A model generated the notes under the pieces. It made no database searches and was not told where the DNA came from. It saw only the letters and a list, made by a program, of their open reading frames with translations. DNA of 40,405 bases from a virus: positions 1-40,405 of the IMG/VR virus record IMGVR_UViG_3300032331_001930, one strand, 5' to 3'. A program made the translations under genes and the position numbers. Each line of letters opens with the position of its first letter. Positions within the stretch are counted from its first letter, which is position 1. Below are positions 26,460-36,332 of this stretch, piece by piece.

Positions 26460-26665
26460 ACGAGTTGAAGGTCGCTAGGGCAAAGATCATCTCTATCATC
26501 GGCGGGACAAACCTGCCCTCGTCAGAGGTCAGGGACAACATAATTAAAATGCTTGGCAATCCAGCGCTCATGGAAGAGCGATACATGCAAAACGTAAGGT
26601 ACGGGCTGAGCCTTGCGATCAATGTCTTGGATGACATGATCGAAGGCGTAGATGCTAAAAGATAG
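26456..26665 (+). CDS. Small helical hypothetical protein
   Basis: A 69-residue protein starting at GTG 26456, overlapping the previous stop, with GGAGGA about eight bases upstream. Two or three helices are likely (LKVARAKIISIIGG and YGLSLAINVLDDMIEG). No known motif. The last 14 bases overlap the next small gene. Confidence 0.65.
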   Translation: MNELKVARAKIISIIGGTNLPSSEVRDNIIKMLGNPALMEERYMQNVRYGLSLAINVLDDMIEGVDAKR

Positions 26666-26843
26666 ACCAGAGAACTATTTCAAGGCTGAGGCTAAGCGCC
26701 TCGGCATCAGCATCAGGGAGTATTGCCGAAGGTTTGGAATCGTCTACTCAACGCTCATCGGCAAAGAGGTAAACTTCGGTGAACCCACCGTGCCACTCTC
26801 CTCGCTCGATGAGCGTGAGTTAGACAAGAAGCAGAAGCGCTAG
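26652..26843 (+). CDS. Small helix-turn-helix-like protein, last gene of the rightward unit
   Basis: A 63-residue basic protein. FKAEAKRLGISIREYCRRFGIVYSTLIGKEV has the spacing of a helix-turn-helix (Arg/Gly at the turn, Ser/Thr in the recognition helix). The acidic-basic C-terminus ends in KKQKR. It is the last gene of the long rightward unit and its stop overlaps the stop of the convergent leftward gene. It is one of few candidates for a phage transcription regulator, but direct evidence is lacking. Confidence 0.62.
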   Translation: MLKDRPENYFKAEAKRLGISIREYCRRFGIVYSTLIGKEVNFGEPTVPLSSLDERELDKKQKR

Positions 26844-30992: not shown

Positions 30993-31379
30993 CTAAACCT
31001 CCTCGTTGATAATCTTCTGCCAAGCGTCAATCACATTGATTGAATCGCCATCTTTGAACGAATAGATCTCCTGTTGACCGTTTGCAAGACCAGCGAGAAC
31101 CGCATCCCTGTATCCAACGTAGATCTCCACGGGATCAAGGTGGACGAACCCGTCCTTAACCCATGCACCAACGTGCTCAACGTTGAACTTCTCAACGATC
31201 TCCTCAAACACACTTTGAACGTCAATGTCCCACAGATCAAAACCTGCCGCTGGTGCAATCTCCAACACCTTGTACGAACCGAACTCTATACCGACCGAAT
31301 AGCCGTCCTTCGGCTCAACGGGCTCAAACGTCTTCGCATCAAACGTGCCGCCGCCATTCTTCAAGATGTATTCTAGCAT
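30993..31379 (-). CDS. First gene of the long leftward operon; GAWV-domain protein
   Basis: A 128-residue protein. I choose ATG 31379 with GAGGTGGG upstream; an ATG at 31400 would add seven residues. Two blocks, KNGGGTFDAKTFEPVEPKDG (7-26) and VGAWVKDGFVHLDPVEIYVG (70-89) with later QQEIYSF, match almost end to end the C-terminal half of the late protein at 35697-36332. From memory, similar GGxT...GWVxxGxVxLD domains occur within large phage polyvalent and virion proteins, mainly of actinophages, without known activity. It is transcribed from the fifth repeated promoter. Confidence 0.78.
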   Translation of the reverse strand: MLEYILKNGGGTFDAKTFEPVEPKDGYSVGIEFGSYKVLEIAPAAGFDLWDIDVQSVFEEIVEKFNVEHVGAWVKDGFVHLDPVEIYVGYRDAVLAGLANGQQEIYSFKDGDSINVIDAWQKIINEEV

Positions 31380-31420
31380 ACCCACCTCTTCGCTCATCAT
31401 CGCCGCTACACTTTGTGCAA

Positions 31421-31465
31421 CGATCCCGATAGACCTATTAGAACACAGATCGCGGCAGATTACAA
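31421..31465 (-). promoter_or_regulatory. Repeated leftward promoter, copy E
   Basis: On the minus strand TTGTAA (complement 31460-31465), a 17-base spacer and TCTAAT (complement 31437-31442), with TGT before the -10. GGGATCG (complement 31421-31427) begins nine bases after the -10, as in the other copies. The leader then differs: a short CAC-AAA-GTG pairing replaces the CCTA-loop hairpin, and GCGGCGA is kept. It drives the long operon 31379 to 26840, including the helicase. Confidence 0.7.
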
Positions 31466-31486
31466 TACCTTTTTGGATAAGATTAG

Positions 31487-31548
31487 GTTAAGATTTCTTA
31501 ATTGTTACAACTATCATTTTTTAAGGAACTATCATTTATTTACTATCA
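31487..31548 (-). repeat. Dyad plus TGATAGT array, copy E
   Basis: The dyad GTTAAG-ATTT-CTTAAT (31487-31502, one mismatch) lies 21 bases from the -35 of promoter E. Three ACTATCA repeats (TGATAGT on the minus strand) follow at 31510-31516, 31528-31534 and 31542-31548. The array lies between this dyad and the terminator of the gene at 31617-32084. Same order as in the four other cassettes. Confidence 0.75.
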
Positions 31549-31560
31549 CAAAATTTTTGC

Positions 31561-31600
31561 AAAAGGAAAAGGGGCTGGCAGCCGAAGCCACCAGCCCCTT
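31561..31600 (-). terminator. Intrinsic terminator after the 155-aa gene
   Basis: Minus strand: AAGGGGCTGG and CCAGCCCCTT (complement 31591-31600 and 31569-31578) form a 10-bp stem with a 12-base loop, followed by TTTTCCTTTT (31561-31570). It lies 17 bases after the stop of the 31617-32084 gene. Confidence 0.85.
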
Positions 31601-31616
31601 CCCGTGATCCTCGCCC

Positions 31617-32084
31617 CTAGCGCGAGACCCAGCCCTTGTCCGTCATCTCATGATCCTGATCAAACGTTGCGTTATCCTTTGCCGCTGACTTCAAGAGAGA
31701 CTTTCCGTTTGAACCTAGAATCCTAATCACCTTCTCATGGTATTCTTCTCGTGAGATGTCTCCCGCGTTTGTTTCAAGACCGATGTGCTGGCGAAGAGAA
31801 TTCTCGTCATGGTAGATCGGCTCCCACTTACCGTCAACGCAACGGCTGATTGTTGAACCATGAATTGAATACTCAATTCCAAGACGATACAGCCACTCAT
31901 CAATGTTGTCTTCGGAGATCTCCGTGAGACCAACCGACATTGTGAGCCAGACCAGCGCGTCCGTCGTACCCTTCAAATACGACTCGCCAGCCTTCATGCC
32001 GTAGTCCATGTTGTCCTTGGTTGCTACATAGTAGCAGACGTTGTCGTGATCCTTCACGTTTGCAACGTTCCAATTAAGTGGCAT
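31617..32084 (-). CDS. Hypothetical protein of leftward cassette D
   Basis: A 155-residue acidic protein starting at ATG 32084 with AAGGAGGG just upstream (the frame opens earlier at 32117 but inside the leader). Trp-rich N-terminus MPLNWNVANVKDHDNVCYYV, a middle ALVWLTMSVGLTEISEDNIDEWLYRLGI, then YHEKVIRILGSNGKSLLKSAAKDNATF at the end. Single-gene cassette with its own promoter and terminator. No family recognised. Confidence 0.78.
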   Translation of the reverse strand: MPLNWNVANVKDHDNVCYYVATKDNMDYGMKAGESYLKGTTDALVWLTMSVGLTEISEDNIDEWLYRLGIEYSIHGSTISRCVDGKWEPIYHDENSLRQHIGLETNAGDISREEYHEKVIRILGSNGKSLLKSAAKDNATFDQDHEMTDKGWVSR

Positions 32085-32109
32085 CGTGCCCTCCTTGATC
32101 CGTCTTCGC

Positions 32110-32172
32110 CGTTCCACTAGGGTGGAGCGATCCCGACAACATCACAGTACCACACCGCACCGCCGAATACAA
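32110..32172 (-). promoter_or_regulatory. Repeated leftward promoter and leader hairpin, copy D
   Basis: Minus strand: TTGTAT (complement 32167-32172), 17 bases, extended -10 TGG-TACTGT (complement 32144-32149). GGGATCG (32128-32134) follows after nine bases, then hairpin TCCAC-CCTA-GTGGA (32113-32126) and CGGCGAAGACG before AAGGAGGG. The stem sequence differs from copies A-C but the pairing and the loop are kept. Confidence 0.8.
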
Positions 32173-32193
32173 CCTTTTTTAGAATAAGGTTTG

Positions 32194-32305
32194 GTTAAGA
32201 TTCCTTAACCGACCACATACCACACAACCGAACAAATGTCAAGTTAAGATTCCTTAACAATTGTAACAAAACTATCATAAGGAACTATCACTTTATTAAC
32301 TATCA
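32194..32305 (-). repeat. Two dyads plus TGATAGT array, copy D
   Basis: Two perfect GTTAAG-ATTC-CTTAAC dyads at 32194-32209 and 32243-32258, the first 21 bases from the -35 of promoter D. ACTATCA repeats follow at 32271-32277, 32284-32290 and 32299-32305. This copy is the only one with two full dyads. Confidence 0.8.
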
Positions 32306-32316
32306 TAAATTTTTGC

Positions 32317-32354
32317 AAAAAAGTGGGGAGCGGAGCCCCTAGACTCCGCCCCCC
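32317..32354 (-). terminator. Intrinsic terminator of cassette A
   Basis: Minus strand: GGGGGCGGAG (complement 32344-32354) pairs with CTCCGCTCCCC (complement 32325-32335), followed by ACTTTTTT (T-tract complement 32317-32322). It lies 15 bases after the stop of the gene at 32370-32639. Confidence 0.85.
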
Positions 32355-32369
32355 GTTGCCGTTGCGATC

Positions 32370-32639
32370 CTAGATGATGTCGTCTAGGAACGCCTCCAAC
32401 TTCAACGCGTCAACCAACACGTGCGCTGGAACTATGTCGCCATACACCCTGTGCGATACACCCTCTGGCATGGCAACCTTACCCTCTGGATCCCCTTGGT
32501 TGCAGAATTCAACCGCCGCGATCGCTGCATCCTTGAACCCGATCATCGGCGGGTAGCAATTCTGCACCAGATGCAATCCGATCGCTGCATCCGTCGCCAT
32601 CCCAGCATCAACCAGTCCTCGTGCGTATCCGTACCCCAT
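32370..32639 (-). CDS. Hypothetical protein of leftward cassette A (second gene)
   Basis: An 89-residue protein from ATG 32639 with GGGAGG upstream. Helical, Ala-rich start MGYGYARGLVDAGMATDAAIG, an NCYPPMIGFKDAAIAAVEFC middle and an acidic helical end. No motif recognised. One base separates it from the upstream membrane protein gene, so the two form a bicistronic cassette. Confidence 0.75.
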   Translation of the reverse strand: MGYGYARGLVDAGMATDAAIGLHLVQNCYPPMIGFKDAAIAAVEFCNQGDPEGKVAMPEGVSHRVYGDIVPAHVLVDALKLEAFLDDII

Positions 32640-32640
32640 G

Positions 32641-32841
32641 TTAGCGCCTCCCTTCATGCTTCGCCGCGTAGTGCTTCGCCACGCGAGTCTCAACCGCGTC
32701 GTATAGCACAGCCAGCCATACGATCGCCCCTGATGCGATCAACCATGCCGCCACCCCGTAGGCGAACGATTCAAACTCCCACCCCACTAGGGCGCCCACC
32801 ACGAACGTGCTCGCCATGACCAGATTCTCCCACTTGTCCAT
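32641..32841 (-). CDS. Small membrane protein of cassette A (first gene)
   Basis: A 66-residue protein from ATG 32841 preceded by AGGAGGAACAC. Two probable membrane segments (MASTFVVGALVGWEFE and YGVAAWLIASGAIVWLAVLYDAV), then a basic tail RVAKHYAAKHEGRR. The frame opens upstream at 32892 inside the leader hairpin. Function unknown; an early phage membrane protein could affect host envelope or superinfection. Confidence 0.75.
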   Translation of the reverse strand: MDKWENLVMASTFVVGALVGWEFESFAYGVAAWLIASGAIVWLAVLYDAVETRVAKHYAAKHEGRR

Positions 32842-32861
32842 GTGTTCCTCCTGTATCCTGT

Positions 32862-32928
32862 CTTCGCCGCACCCTAGGGGGTGCGATCCCAACTACTGAA
32901 CAGTACCACAGACAGCGTTAAGGATCAA
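32862..32928 (-). promoter_or_regulatory. Repeated leftward promoter and leader hairpin, copy A
   Basis: Minus strand: TTGATC (complement 32923-32928), 17 bases, TGG-TACTGT (complement 32900-32905), then nine bases and GGGATCG (32884-32890). Hairpin GCACCC-CCTA-GGGTGC (32869-32884) follows, then GGCGAAGACAGGA and AGGAGG before the ATG at 32841. Estimated leader about 50 bases. Confidence 0.82.
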
Positions 32929-32939
32929 CCCCTAAGATG

Positions 32940-33002
32940 GTTAAGATTCCTTAACAATCGGAACTATCATTTTTTAAGGAACTATCACTTTATTAACTAT
33001 CA
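32940..33002 (-). repeat. Dyad plus TGATAGT array, copy A
   Basis: A perfect GTTAAG-ATTC-CTTAAC dyad at 32940-32955, 11 bases from the -35. ACTATCA repeats at 32963-32969, 32981-32987 and 32996-33002. Same order as the other cassettes. Confidence 0.8.
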
Positions 33003-33015
33003 TTTTTTGCCCAAC

Positions 33016-33046
33016 AAAAAAGGGAGCGCCTCGCGGCGCCCCCCTT
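33016..33046 (-). terminator. Intrinsic terminator of cassette B
   Basis: Minus strand: GGGGGGCGCC (complement 33035-33044), loop GCGA, GGCGCTCCC (complement 33022-33030), then TTTTTT (complement 33016-33021). It lies 12 bases after the stop of the gene at 33059-33400. Confidence 0.87.
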
Positions 33047-33058
33047 CTTGCCCCTAAC

Positions 33059-33400
33059 CTAGCGGATGTGGATAACCATCCCCCCATCCTCGCACGACTT
33101 CTGAACCCCTCGTGCTGTAACACTCTGATGCTTGCTCGTCGTTCGGCTGTACTTCTCCGCGGGAATTACCCACGAACCGTCATCAAGCCTCCATGCGATC
33201 GGTGTCGCGTACGACTTCACCACATAGCGGATGCGCTCATCATCCGCCTTGAACCGATCAAGCGCTGAACCGTATGCGATCCCTGCTGGTGTGTTCCCGC
33301 CCCGTGCGATACTATACCCATGAAGTGCCGAAGCGTAGAAGTCTACACCCTTGGCGATCATGTCTACCGCCTGCTTCTGATTAACCCGAACACCGTTCAT
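33059..33400 (-). CDS. Hypothetical protein of leftward cassette B
   Basis: A 113-residue protein from ATG 33400 with AAGGAGGAAAC upstream; an upstream frame to 33499 is within the leader. RYVVKSYATPIAWRLDDGSWVIPAEKYSRTTSKHQSVTA has the SYxTPIAW...YSxTTSxH pattern found in many small phage proteins of unknown function. Single-gene cassette with own promoter and terminator. Confidence 0.78.
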   Translation of the reverse strand: MNGVRVNQKQAVDMIAKGVDFYASALHGYSIARGGNTPAGIAYGSALDRFKADDERIRYVVKSYATPIAWRLDDGSWVIPAEKYSRTTSKHQSVTARGVQKSCEDGGMVIHIR

Positions 33401-33420
33401 GTTTCCTCCTTCGTCCTGTC

Positions 33421-33486
33421 TTCGCCGCACCCTAGGGGGTGTGTTCCTGACTTCTGAACAGTAACACAGCCGCAACCCCATTACAA
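33421..33486 (-). promoter_or_regulatory. Repeated leftward promoter and leader hairpin, copy B
   Basis: Minus strand: TTGTAA (complement 33481-33486), 17 bases, TGT-TACTGT (complement 33458-33463). The hairpin CACCC-CCTA-GGGTG lies at 33428-33441, then GCGGCGAAGACAGGA before AAGGAGG. The GGGATCG block is degenerate here (AGGAACA). Confidence 0.8.
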
Positions 33487-33507
33487 CCAATTTACGCATA
33501 AGGTTTG

Positions 33508-33581
33508 GTTAAGGTTTCTTCACCGTCGTTAACAATGTAACAATCGGACTATCATAAGGAACTATCATTTATTTACTATCA
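33508..33581 (-). repeat. Dyad plus TGATAGT array, copy B
   Basis: A degenerate dyad GTTAAG-GTTT-CTTCAC (33508-33523) 21 bases from the -35, and ACTATCA repeats at 33548-33554, 33561-33567 and 33575-33581. GTAACAATCGG precedes the first repeat, as in copy C. Confidence 0.75.
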
Positions 33582-33582
33582 C

Positions 33583-33617
33583 AAAAAAGAGGAGAGGCGC
33601 CCTAGGCGCCCCTCCCC
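33583..33617 (-). terminator. Intrinsic terminator of cassette C
   Basis: Minus strand: GGGGAGGGGCGCC (complement 33605-33617), loop TAG, GGCGCCTCTCCTC (complement 33589-33601), then TTTTTT (complement 33583-33588). It starts eight bases after the stop of the gene at 33625-33993. Confidence 0.88.
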
Positions 33618-33624
33618 TTGATTG

Positions 33625-33993
33625 TTACAGGTTGCTGATCGCGTCCTGCACCTCTTCTAGGACTTCCTGCCTGACCTCCTCCTTAATCTCGTCCTCCAAT
33701 TCCTCGCGCACCTCGTCGCGGATCTCGTCGGTTAGATTCTCCTTGACTTCCGCCTCTACGCGATCCCAGAGATCGCCACCTAGAAGCGTCCGAATCTCTT
33801 CGGCGCTGATGTCTGTTTCTCCGTCGCTGATGTGTGAGCGCTCGCCGCTCGTCCAATCCTTCGCGTTATCCAGAACCGTGCCAATGAACTTCTGGAACTT
33901 CGGCGCCCGTTCAACGGCTCGCTCCGCTACGGCTGCCGCTGCCGTCGCATGAATCGCGTTCATGACGTTCGCCTGATCCTGATTCTCGTTCAT
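33625..33993 (-). CDS. Coiled-coil acidic protein of leftward cassette C
   Basis: A 122-residue protein, first leftward gene next to the control hub. Ala-rich helix at residues 12-28 (AIHATAAAAVAERAVER), a middle acidic region, then from residue 80 to the end a long Glu-rich helix (EVKENLTDEIRDEVREELED and onward), a likely coiled coil. ATG 33993 follows AAGGGGGAAAC. The acidic helix is reminiscent of DNA-mimic or adaptor proteins, but no family is recognised. Confidence 0.78.
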   Translation of the reverse strand: MNENQDQANVMNAIHATAAAAVAERAVERAPKFQKFIGTVLDNAKDWTSGERSHISDGETDISAEEIRTLLGGDLWDRVEAEVKENLTDEIRDEVREELEDEIKEEVRQEVLEEVQDAISNL

Positions 33994-34009
33994 GTTTCCC
34001 CCTTCGTGC

Positions 34010-34079
34010 TGTCTTCGTCGCCCCCTAGGGGGAGCGATCCCGACGCCCTATTTGTACCATGCCGATGGTTAATTCCCAA
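34010..34079 (-). promoter_or_regulatory. Repeated leftward promoter and leader hairpin, copy C
   Basis: Minus strand: TTGGGA (complement 34074-34079), 17 bases, TGG-TACAAA (complement 34051-34056), nine bases, GGGATCG (34035-34041). The leader hairpin is CTCCC-CCTA-GGGGG (34020-34034 region), then GCGACGAAGACAG before AAGGGGGAAAC. First promoter of the leftward side after the hub. Confidence 0.78.
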
Positions 34080-34090
34080 CCCCTGTTGCG

Positions 34091-34170
34091 TATAAGGTTT
34101 CTTAACAATTGTAACAATCGGACTATCATTTTTTCTACTATCATAAGGAACTATCACTTAATTACTATCA
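34091..34170 (-). repeat. Degenerate dyad plus TGATAGT array (four repeats), copy C
   Basis: TATAAG-GTTT-CTTAAC (34091-34106), a degenerate copy of the dyad, lies 11 bases from the -35. Four ACTATCA repeats follow at 34122-34128, 34137-34143, 34150-34156 and 34164-34170, the longest array. It borders the hub directly; no terminator lies here because no leftward gene is upstream. Confidence 0.75.
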
Positions 34171-34309: not shown

Positions 34310-34408
34310 TGGCACAGGTTGTGCCAGTTAGCACTCATGGGGGGTAGGTCTGCTAGTGGCACAGGTTGTGCCAGTTGGCATAGCGGAGGGGTGGCACAGG
34401 TTGTGCCA
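34310..34408. repeat. Three copies of a perfect TGGCACA-N3-TGTGCCA dyad
   Basis: Identical 17-base sequences TGGCACAGGTTGTGCCA at 34310-34326, 34357-34373 and 34392-34408. The first two are followed by GTT and a GCA motif. Spacing is 47 and 35 bases. The dyad symmetry indicates a dimeric DNA-binding protein, so these are operators or replication iterons. No overlapping gene is convincing. Confidence 0.85.
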
Positions 34409-34410
34409 TG

Positions 34411-34538
34411 TGAGGCGTCCTCATGTCTGACCATGCGCGGGGGTATGTGAGGCGTCTTCACAAAGGGGGGTGGGGGGGTAATACACTCTCCCCCCTCATG
34501 AAGCATCCTCACATTGTCTGCCACATGAGGAACCCTCA
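34411..34538. repeat. Four copies of a TGAGG-N3-CCTCA dyad
   Basis: Cores at 34411-34423 (TGAGGCGTCCTCA), 34448-34460 (TGAGGCGTCTTCA), 34499-34511 (TGAAGCATCCTCA) and 34526-34538 (TGAGGAACCCTCA). Consensus TGTGAGG-N3-CCTCACA. The first core begins two bases after the last TGGCACA dyad. A second regulator or initiator site family is likely. Confidence 0.8.
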
Positions 34539-34590
34539 CATTTTTGCTGACCCCCCCTCTCCCCCCAGCATTTGAGCGTGGGGAGGCGTC

Positions 34591-34765: not shown

Positions 34766-34781
34766 GTTAAGAAAACTTAAC
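34766..34781. promoter_or_regulatory. GTTAAG-AAAA-CTTAAC dyad on the rightward side
   Basis: A perfect dyad of the same half-sites as in the leftward cassettes, preceded by CAATT. It lies about 180 bases upstream of the first rightward gene (ATG 34959). It suggests that one regulator binds both leftward and rightward control regions. Confidence 0.65.
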
Positions 34782-35696: not shown

Positions 35697-36332
35697 ATGG
35701 CAAAGCGCGGTCTGACCAAGGGCAAGAAGCGAGAGATTCCACTCAGTCAAATGAGCAAAGCGGAATACAACGCAAGAATTGTCCAGGGTCAGGGCGCAAG
35801 GCGCCGCAGCAACGGGGACTTCTCCTCCAACGCACTGGAAGCCTTTACTGGGTTTAACAGTCGGGACGGTGTAGACCTTGGCGATATCGCTGGTCTTGCA
35901 ATGACCGCTGCCACGCTTGGCACAGGGGCAGTCATTAAAAGCGCTGCTCGTCGAGCCACCGCAGTTGGTCTTCGGGACACAATCATTGCAAAGGGCGGAG
36001 TGACTATTAACTCCAAGGCAATGAAGGTTGTCTCGCCAAAGCGTGGATACGCAGTTGGGATCACCAACAAGACGGCAGTAAAAGTTCCAGTAAAGAAGGC
36101 AAGTGCTGGCAATATCCTTAAGGCATTTGACCAGGTTCAAAATAAGTACACCCCGAAAAACATGGGTGCATGGGTCCAACGTGGACAAATCCATATCGAC
36201 CCAACCCGCATTGTAAAATCATATGGCAAGGCACAAAGGATTGGTAGGAAAATGAATCAAGACAGCGTCTACTCCTTCGGTGCAAACAAGGGAAAAGGGG
36301 CAAGCCTCAAAGTAATTAAGCGCGGACGATGA
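35697..36332 (+). CDS. Basic late protein with C-terminal GAWV domain
   Basis: A 211-residue protein. Residues 1-90 are basic and partly hydrophobic (LGDIAGLAMTAATLGTGAVI). Residues 93-200 align with the whole 128-residue leftward protein at 30993-31379: AKGGVTINSKAMKVVSPKRG with KNGGGTFDAKTFEPVEPKDG, and MGAWVQRGQIHIDPTRIVKS with VGAWVKDGFVHLDPVEIYVG, then VYSF with IYSF. The protein ends KVIKRGR. Start ATG 35697 lies six bases after the previous stop. It may carry the domain into the virion or host. Confidence 0.8.
   Translation: MAKRGLTKGKKREIPLSQMSKAEYNARIVQGQGARRRSNGDFSSNALEAFTGFNSRDGVDLGDIAGLAMTAATLGTGAVIKSAARRATAVGLRDTIIAKGGVTINSKAMKVVSPKRGYAVGITNKTAVKVPVKKASAGNILKAFDQVQNKYTPKNMGAWVQRGQIHIDPTRIVKSYGKAQRIGRKMNQDSVYSFGANKGKGASLKVIKRGR

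Follow-up and report, generated by a model that had tools for sequence, protein, structure and literature searches.

The morons of lambdoid prophages are small genes, each with a promoter and a terminator of its own, which are gained and lost between relatives and are expressed from the prophage independently of the lytic programme. The conserved inverted repeats at the early promoters of phiC31 and the stoperators of the L5 type are scattered through the early region as the many sites of a single DNA-binding protein. Composite promoter-terminator cassettes are also known as a kind, and the promoter early stem-loops (PeSLs) of T4-like phages are mobile examples (Arbiol 2010 and Comeau 2014, cited in PMC4503421). 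Here we describe five composite units in the viral record IMGVR_UViG_3300032331_001930 of IMG/VR, a linear stretch of 40,405 bases which as a whole will be called the window. Each unit places an array of the heptad TGATAGT, a GTTAAG-N4-CTTAAC dyad, a predicted promoter and a leader, in this order, before a small gene.

With morons the units share small genes that have their own promoter and terminator and that come and go between relatives. They differ in having control parts in common, and a scan of window proteins (Pfam and PHROGs; a selection of the open reading frames) brought up no recognisable lysogeny genes. Unlike in the phiC31 and L5 systems, that scan recognised neither repressor nor integrase, and the sites lie in a fixed helical register upstream of promoters.

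The likeness to PeSLs, as the citing paper presents them, lies in the intergenic pairing of a stem-loop terminator with a promoter, in its density within a hypervariable region of small orphan genes and in gene shuffling between relatives (PMC4503421); here, too, the gene content between cassettes differs among close relatives. Unlike PeSLs as far as that paper describes them, our units add the heptad array, a phased ladder of dyad half-sites and a covarying RNA at the 5' end, and they belong to a 40-kb record that is not recognisably T4-like, with 17-bp spacers and extended -10 boxes rather than promoters of the T4 early type. The start-associated repeats SAS and ESAS of the cluster K mycobacteriophages are a second precedent: SAS, GGGATAGGAGCCC, is located at the start codon, and ESAS repeats reportedly do not support pairing of the RNA (PMC3203893). 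Both systems have many copies of one asymmetric motif together with inverted repeats before some small genes of the non-structural half (PMC3203893), but in the window no GGGATAGGAGCCC stands just before the ATG; instead +1 is the first base of a covarying hairpin, and the dyad precedes the -35. An earlier note on this DNA knew of no description of the element. For the exact element this stands, as neither a paper nor an Rfam family was found, while the kind has the precedents just given. The units are best called a variant of mobile composite promoter-terminator cassettes that departs from PeSLs and from SAS/ESAS in some defining features of each.

Architecture, conservation and gene turnover

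The control DNA of the five units, A to E, spans window positions 31396-34170 on the minus strand, and the genes span 30993-33993. The earlier note had located the region rightly at 31421-34170, although short of the full control DNA and of the genes; the five repeated cassettes that it described are present with every part it named, and the set is larger than it supposed. The search of related phage genomes that it suggested yielded the unit in two viral contigs, five copies in G002 (34 kb) and one copy, at the contig end, in G001 (17 kb). Order and spacing of the parts recur in 11 units of the three genomes, and thus do not dissolve on comparison, as the note had allowed that they might. When viral contigs were scanned for two spaced heptads plus TTCCTTA, these two were the only true relatives with the unit. 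Array-pattern matches in L130/L135 and in an Anaerolineae contig (L131/L136), of which one came from genome contigs that were scanned too, were put down to chance, the sequence around them being coding-like and devoid of other cassette parts.

About 90% identity to the window is found in the terminase large subunit of G002 and in the ERF protein of several relatives; in the leftward region protein identity ranges over 36-93%, and some proteins are missing. G021, a contig of 38 kb, is nearly the same as G001 across the compared part and ends within the unit that it shares with G001. More distant members of the family were fetched through a double-psi barrel protein and a 63-residue protein. Searches with the window DNA and with its terminase large subunit gave no match to known phages, and the terminase matches PHROG 2/38 weakly.

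All five main predicted promoters have a 17-bp spacer and a TGN before the -10, as previously noted, although only B, C and D have TACTGT as the -10 itself, with TACAAA in A and TCTAAT in E. The motif GGGATCG begins after nine intervening bases past the -10, again as claimed. Strong terminators follow genes A, B, C2 and D, in agreement with the note's count of four intrinsic terminators; the folded segments reach -30 to -36 kcal/mol, and terminators stand likewise after A-D in G002. Units B-E directly follow the terminators of A-D, so that a stem-loop terminator and then a promoter lie between co-directional genes. A generic terminator scanner alone detects two of the four strong terminators, and in generic scans the promoter and terminator counts of the window do not exceed those of shuffled sequence, so the case rests on repetition and conservation.

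Gene content around the units varies between the relatives. In the window, the unit-E leader is separated from gene F by gene E and a zinc-ribbon-like gene of 44 residues; G001 and G002 lack both and have gene F immediately after the unit. The order of C1 and C2 is reversed in G002. The G001 unit looks chimeric: its terminator and array resemble those of window unit D, its promoter and leader those of unit E. Recombination inside the array that removed gene D would be expected to leave this arrangement, but the position at a contig end makes it suggestive only. The contigs G001, G002 and G021 each end at or beside a unit, as is common at repeated DNA. The moron-like expandable array of the earlier note is borne out in part by this turnover and by the promoter-gene-terminator layout, though not as to a prophage setting, neither integrase nor repressor having been recognised among the proteins scanned.

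With little more than even confidence, we read the units as PeSL-like promoter-terminator cassettes under one helically phased regulator, which yield mRNAs sealed by a 5' hairpin and between which recombination swaps accessory genes. Each cassette would give one or two accessory genes of a double-stranded DNA phage their own, perhaps early, transcription unit, with the extended -10 promoter read by the host RNA polymerase. A dimeric regulator of helix-turn-helix type may bind the ladder of GTTAA/CTTAA half-sites on the polymerase-facing side of the helix and switch all units together, probably along with the divergent rightward operon; because the sites lie upstream of the promoters, not over them, and most -35 boxes are weak, it would act mostly as an activator. 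The heptad array would be a further binding site that strengthens control in the lineage of the window, G001 and G002. The 5' stem-loop would seal the mRNA end against decay and leave the ribosome site free, and a strong terminator would close most units. The repeated DNA may provide homology for recombination, through which genes would be inserted, lost or reordered between cassettes.

Leader RNA, heptad arrays and dyad ladder

The predicted transcripts of ten units begin, exactly at the expected +1, with a stem-loop of 34-36 nt that consists of a 3-bp end helix, an internal loop, an 8-9-bp stem and mostly a CCUA loop. Its first base is the seventh after the -10 and a purine in 10 of 10 cases. 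In the DNA the motif reads GTYRGGA...CGAAGAC, with about 16-20 nt from there to the ATG, and folding gives GUC-RGGA-stem-CCUA-stem-CGAA-GAC in most leaders; the minimum-energy fold of the unit D leader prefers another structure. With ten leaders aligned by hand, standard pairs fill 106 of 114 pair cells, against an average of 83 and a maximum of 96 in 20,000 shuffles. Stem changes are compensatory: the second stem pair goes from C-G to A-U to G-C, and the first pair of the end helix from G-C to A-U. A covariance model built from five copies scores three held-out copies at 37-39 bits and two variants at about 15 bits at the expected place; elsewhere in 190 kb it found nothing convincing, the one other match (17 bits, E 0.07) being taken as chance. 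Apart from G002, a scan with the leader pattern returned a single match, in coding sequence of three contigs, that was put down to chance. No Rfam family reached its gathering threshold with the leaders and none appeared on them at E up to 1; weak matches to CsrC and snR83, far below the gathering scores and off the leaders, were set aside as noise.

Rather than a passive seal, the stem-loop might be a recognition site, whether for protein-bound translational control or as an antitermination RNA of the HK022 put type. The GGA of the RGGA/CGAA internal loop is invariant and the CCUA loop is kept in 8 of 10 leaders while the stem varies, which would suit recognition, as would the fact that units end in terminators. 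On the other hand, G002 unit F has an unrelated 8-bp hairpin at the leader position and the E/F-type leaders carry AAA or GAA loops, as suits a generic structural role, and the terminators isolate the units, a layout that read-through would defeat. We regard recognition as a credible but tentative alternative, somewhat improbable on balance, and retain the sealing hairpin.

The window has 23 copies of the heptad, as ACTATCA, where shuffled sequence has 3.6 on average and 8 at most. Sixteen copies fall into five clusters of one orientation, reading TGATAGT on the minus strand: four copies in unit A (34122-34170) and three each in units B (33548-33581), C (32963-33002), D (32271-32305) and E (31510-31548), the copy numbers of the earlier note. 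No other of the 13,320 different 7-mers in the window forms five clusters (at least three copies within 60 bp). Arrays are 97-98% identical within one genome, where they are the most uniform part of the unit, and 94% identical between orthologues, while the encoded proteins are 36-93% identical; strong concerted evolution was rejected as an account of this, the effect being slight.

As the heptad holds two consecutive stop codons (TGA TAG), the arrays at 31510-34170 block translation of the minus strand in at least one frame. Among the matches listed, intergenic TGATAGT arrays of 3-8 copies at irregular spacings of 11-18 bp were found in many apparently unrelated viral contigs (L011, L013, L014, L016, L027, L035, L043, L051, L063, L083, L087, L091, L104, L107, L120 and others), usually confined to a single place per genome in the records that were checked, and often directly after a terminator. 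Many other listed matches of the loose scan were repeats of coding type, with a period divisible by three. The arrays of other phages may point to a wider motif; a literature search found no paper that names the heptad.

The arrays could also be iterons of replication or partition, or mere recombination homology, and stand before promoters incidentally. Their occurrence in those listed contigs, the irregular heptad spacing of 13-18 bp and their uniformity within one genome all favour this. However, the window has five arrays, each before a promoter and all in one orientation, and the first unit has a four-copy array though no leftward gene or terminator lies upstream of it. We consider such a role unlikely and keep to the array as a putative control site.

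If up to two mismatches are allowed, the window contains eight copies of the dyad, where 1.1 are expected, and six of these lie within the five units; a perfect or degenerate dyad in each unit had been claimed and is borne out. A perfect copy (GTTAAGAAAACTTAAC, 34766-34781) precedes the rightward genes in the divergent region, and five relatives (G021, G019, G025, G026 and G022) retain it, either as a perfect dyad or with a single change. Arrays and leader RNA were not found in the distant relatives examined, save for the G001/G021 unit. The gap between dyad and -35 was read in 14 promoters, 13 from the three genomes and one before gene B of a distant relative, L146; it is 0 bp in three, 11 bp in six and 21 bp in five, with no other value. 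Two degenerate dyads missed by the script pattern (window unit E and G002 unit C) were read directly from the sequence, and in G002 unit A a gap of 11 goes with a weak -35 and a spacer of 16. Between the window and G002, the gap of the orthologous units B and D differs by exactly 10 bp. Extra half-sites, GTTAA upstream and CTTAT downstream (GTTAA in L146), lie 10-11 bp from those of the dyad. The downstream one is present wherever the gap is 21 bp, which brings the end of the ladder to about one turn of the helix ahead of the -35. These gaps and steps place the dyad in helical register, which favours a protein that touches the polymerase from one face; steric repression would be less natural at gaps of 11 and 21 bp, though possible at 0. 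The phasing, the tandem promoters of unit D and the covarying +1 hairpin, an RNA element not in Rfam, are features absent from the earlier note.

A repressor bound to the dyads, serving immunity or a shut-off during the lytic cycle, could silence the cassettes together across the early region, much as at the P22 operators, the phiC31 inverted repeats or the L5 stoperators. The core TTAAG-N4-CTTAA equals that of the C2/Cro operators OR1-3 and OL1-3 read from the P22 record (TTAAGTCATCTTAAA, TTAAGTGTTCTTTAA), a likeness of sites and not proof of a like protein; the dyad also abuts a consensus TTGACA in three promoters, and tandem dyads occur in unit D and in G002 D. Unlike the P22 sites, which overlap promoters and serve the C2/Cro switch, the dyad stops 11 or 21 bp short of the -35 in 11 of the 14 promoters; a dimer bound there would leave the polymerase site uncovered, and no C2/Cro-type repressor was recognised among the proteins scanned. 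Repression seems to us quite unlikely. Plain recent duplication of one promoter region, with repeated parts that lack a selected function, would account for the paralogous sequences of the units but is very improbable, as array, dyad register, 17-bp spacer, +1 position and RNA pairing persist in relatives whose encoded proteins have diverged by 7-64%, and as the compensatory stem changes disfavour it.

The shared regulator proposed in the earlier note gains indirect support from the same phased dyad at all promoters of the three genomes and its retention in distant relatives. A weak candidate is the basic protein of 63 residues encoded at 26652-26843 on the plus strand, which has a helix-turn-helix-like stretch and is kept in the relatives examined. 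Its kinship with Cro was not supported (4% probability against P22 Cro), and its structure model was too poor for use.

The individual units and their surroundings

Coordinates in the units refer to the minus strand. In unit A the dyad (GTTAAGAAACCTTATA, two mismatches, 34091-34106) lies 11 bp before the -35 of the predicted promoter TTGGGA-17-TACAAA (34051-34079, TGG before the -10), and the leader stem-loop (34011-34044) begins at the predicted +1. Gene A (33625-33993; 122 residues, function unassigned) is followed by a terminator at 33587-33619. The dyad of unit B (GTGAAGAAACCTTAAC, 33508-33523) is 21 bp before the -35 and has extra half-sites 10 bp upstream and 11 bp downstream; the predicted promoter TTGTAA-17-TACTGT (33458-33486, TGT before the -10) leads to a stem-loop at the predicted +1 (33418-33451), to gene B (33059-33400; 113 residues, similar to PHROG 32689, function unassigned) and to a terminator (33014-33045). 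Unit C combines a perfect dyad (32940-32955), 11 bp before the -35, with the predicted promoter TTGATC-17-TACTGT (32900-32928, TGG before the -10) and a leader at the predicted +1 (32860-32893). It serves two genes, C1 (32641-32841; 66 residues, hydrophobic, probably a small membrane protein) and C2 (32370-32639; 89 residues, function unassigned), and ends in a terminator at 32325-32354.

Unit D has two tandem predicted promoters, each with a perfect dyad. The first dyad (32243-32258) abuts the -35 of P1, TTGACA-17-TATGTG (32214-32242), and the second (32194-32209) lies 21 bp before that of P2, TTGTAT-17-TACTGT (32144-32172); TGG precedes both -10 boxes. The leader at the predicted +1 (32102-32137) is a held-out match of the RNA model at 39 bits, and gene D (31617-32084; 155 residues, function unassigned) and a terminator (31565-31602) follow. 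In unit E the dyad (ATTAAGAAATCTTAAC, 31487-31502) lies 21 bp before the -35, with an extra half-site 11 bp downstream, and the predicted promoter is TTGTAA-17-TCTAAT (31437-31465, TGT before the -10). Its leader (31396-31430), at the predicted +1, is a variant with an AUC/GAU end helix and an AAA loop. Gene E (30993-31379; 128 residues) has no terminator after it, and the operon continues towards dnaB. PHROG 17808 matches gene E and also part of a rightward gene (35697-36332), so that one domain occurs in both the accessory gene and the rightward operon.

The non-coding divergent region holds three copies of a palindrome-like site, TGGCACAGGTTGTGCCA (34310-34326, 34357-34373 and 34392-34408), clusters of which were not seen in G001 or G002, and several TGAGG-N3-CCTCA-like dyads at 34400-34560. 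Near the left end of the window, a gene has its homologue in positions 1-3150 of the relative L144 beside genes that are not at that window end; compared with both window ends, L144 hints that the window may be a circularly permuted, nearly complete genome.

Support and meaning

Several points weigh against the activated, hairpin-sealed cassettes that we favour. For the leader RNA, the count of extra pair types is marginal (P 0.056), shuffling related sequences overstates covariation, and the folding energies of single leaders are unremarkable (z -2.1 to +0.6). The 10-bp shifts of the dyad may have spread by recombination between units and are then perhaps not independent; the three dyads that abut a consensus TTGACA would fit a repressor equally well. 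The heptad spacing of 13-15 and 18 bp is not helical, and the chimeric unit at the end of G001 could be a mis-join. A dyad-binding regulator was not identified among the window proteins scanned, and the 63-residue candidate has only sub-threshold family matches, a model of pLDDT 62 and no structural match.

A bolder proposal goes further: the stem-loop would be a new class of phage RNA, bound by a specific protein, by RNA polymerase or by the ribosome, and would form, with the array and the ladder, a complete phage-specific regulon code that co-regulates any gene placed behind it. We put this forward as speculative and rather improbable.

The small genes that phages carry in great number, without assigned function, change fast, and it is an open question how a newcomer gains proper expression at once. 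Near-identical, self-contained units at five or more accessory genes would put these under joint control, and any one gene could be gained, lost or exchanged while the rest stay undisturbed. The region offers a compact natural example, in which five plug-in units with shared control parts, present in two related phages, make insertions, changes of order and a possible fusion of units visible. Together, the helical register and a covarying RNA at the exact start of the transcript make the mechanism precisely and cheaply testable.

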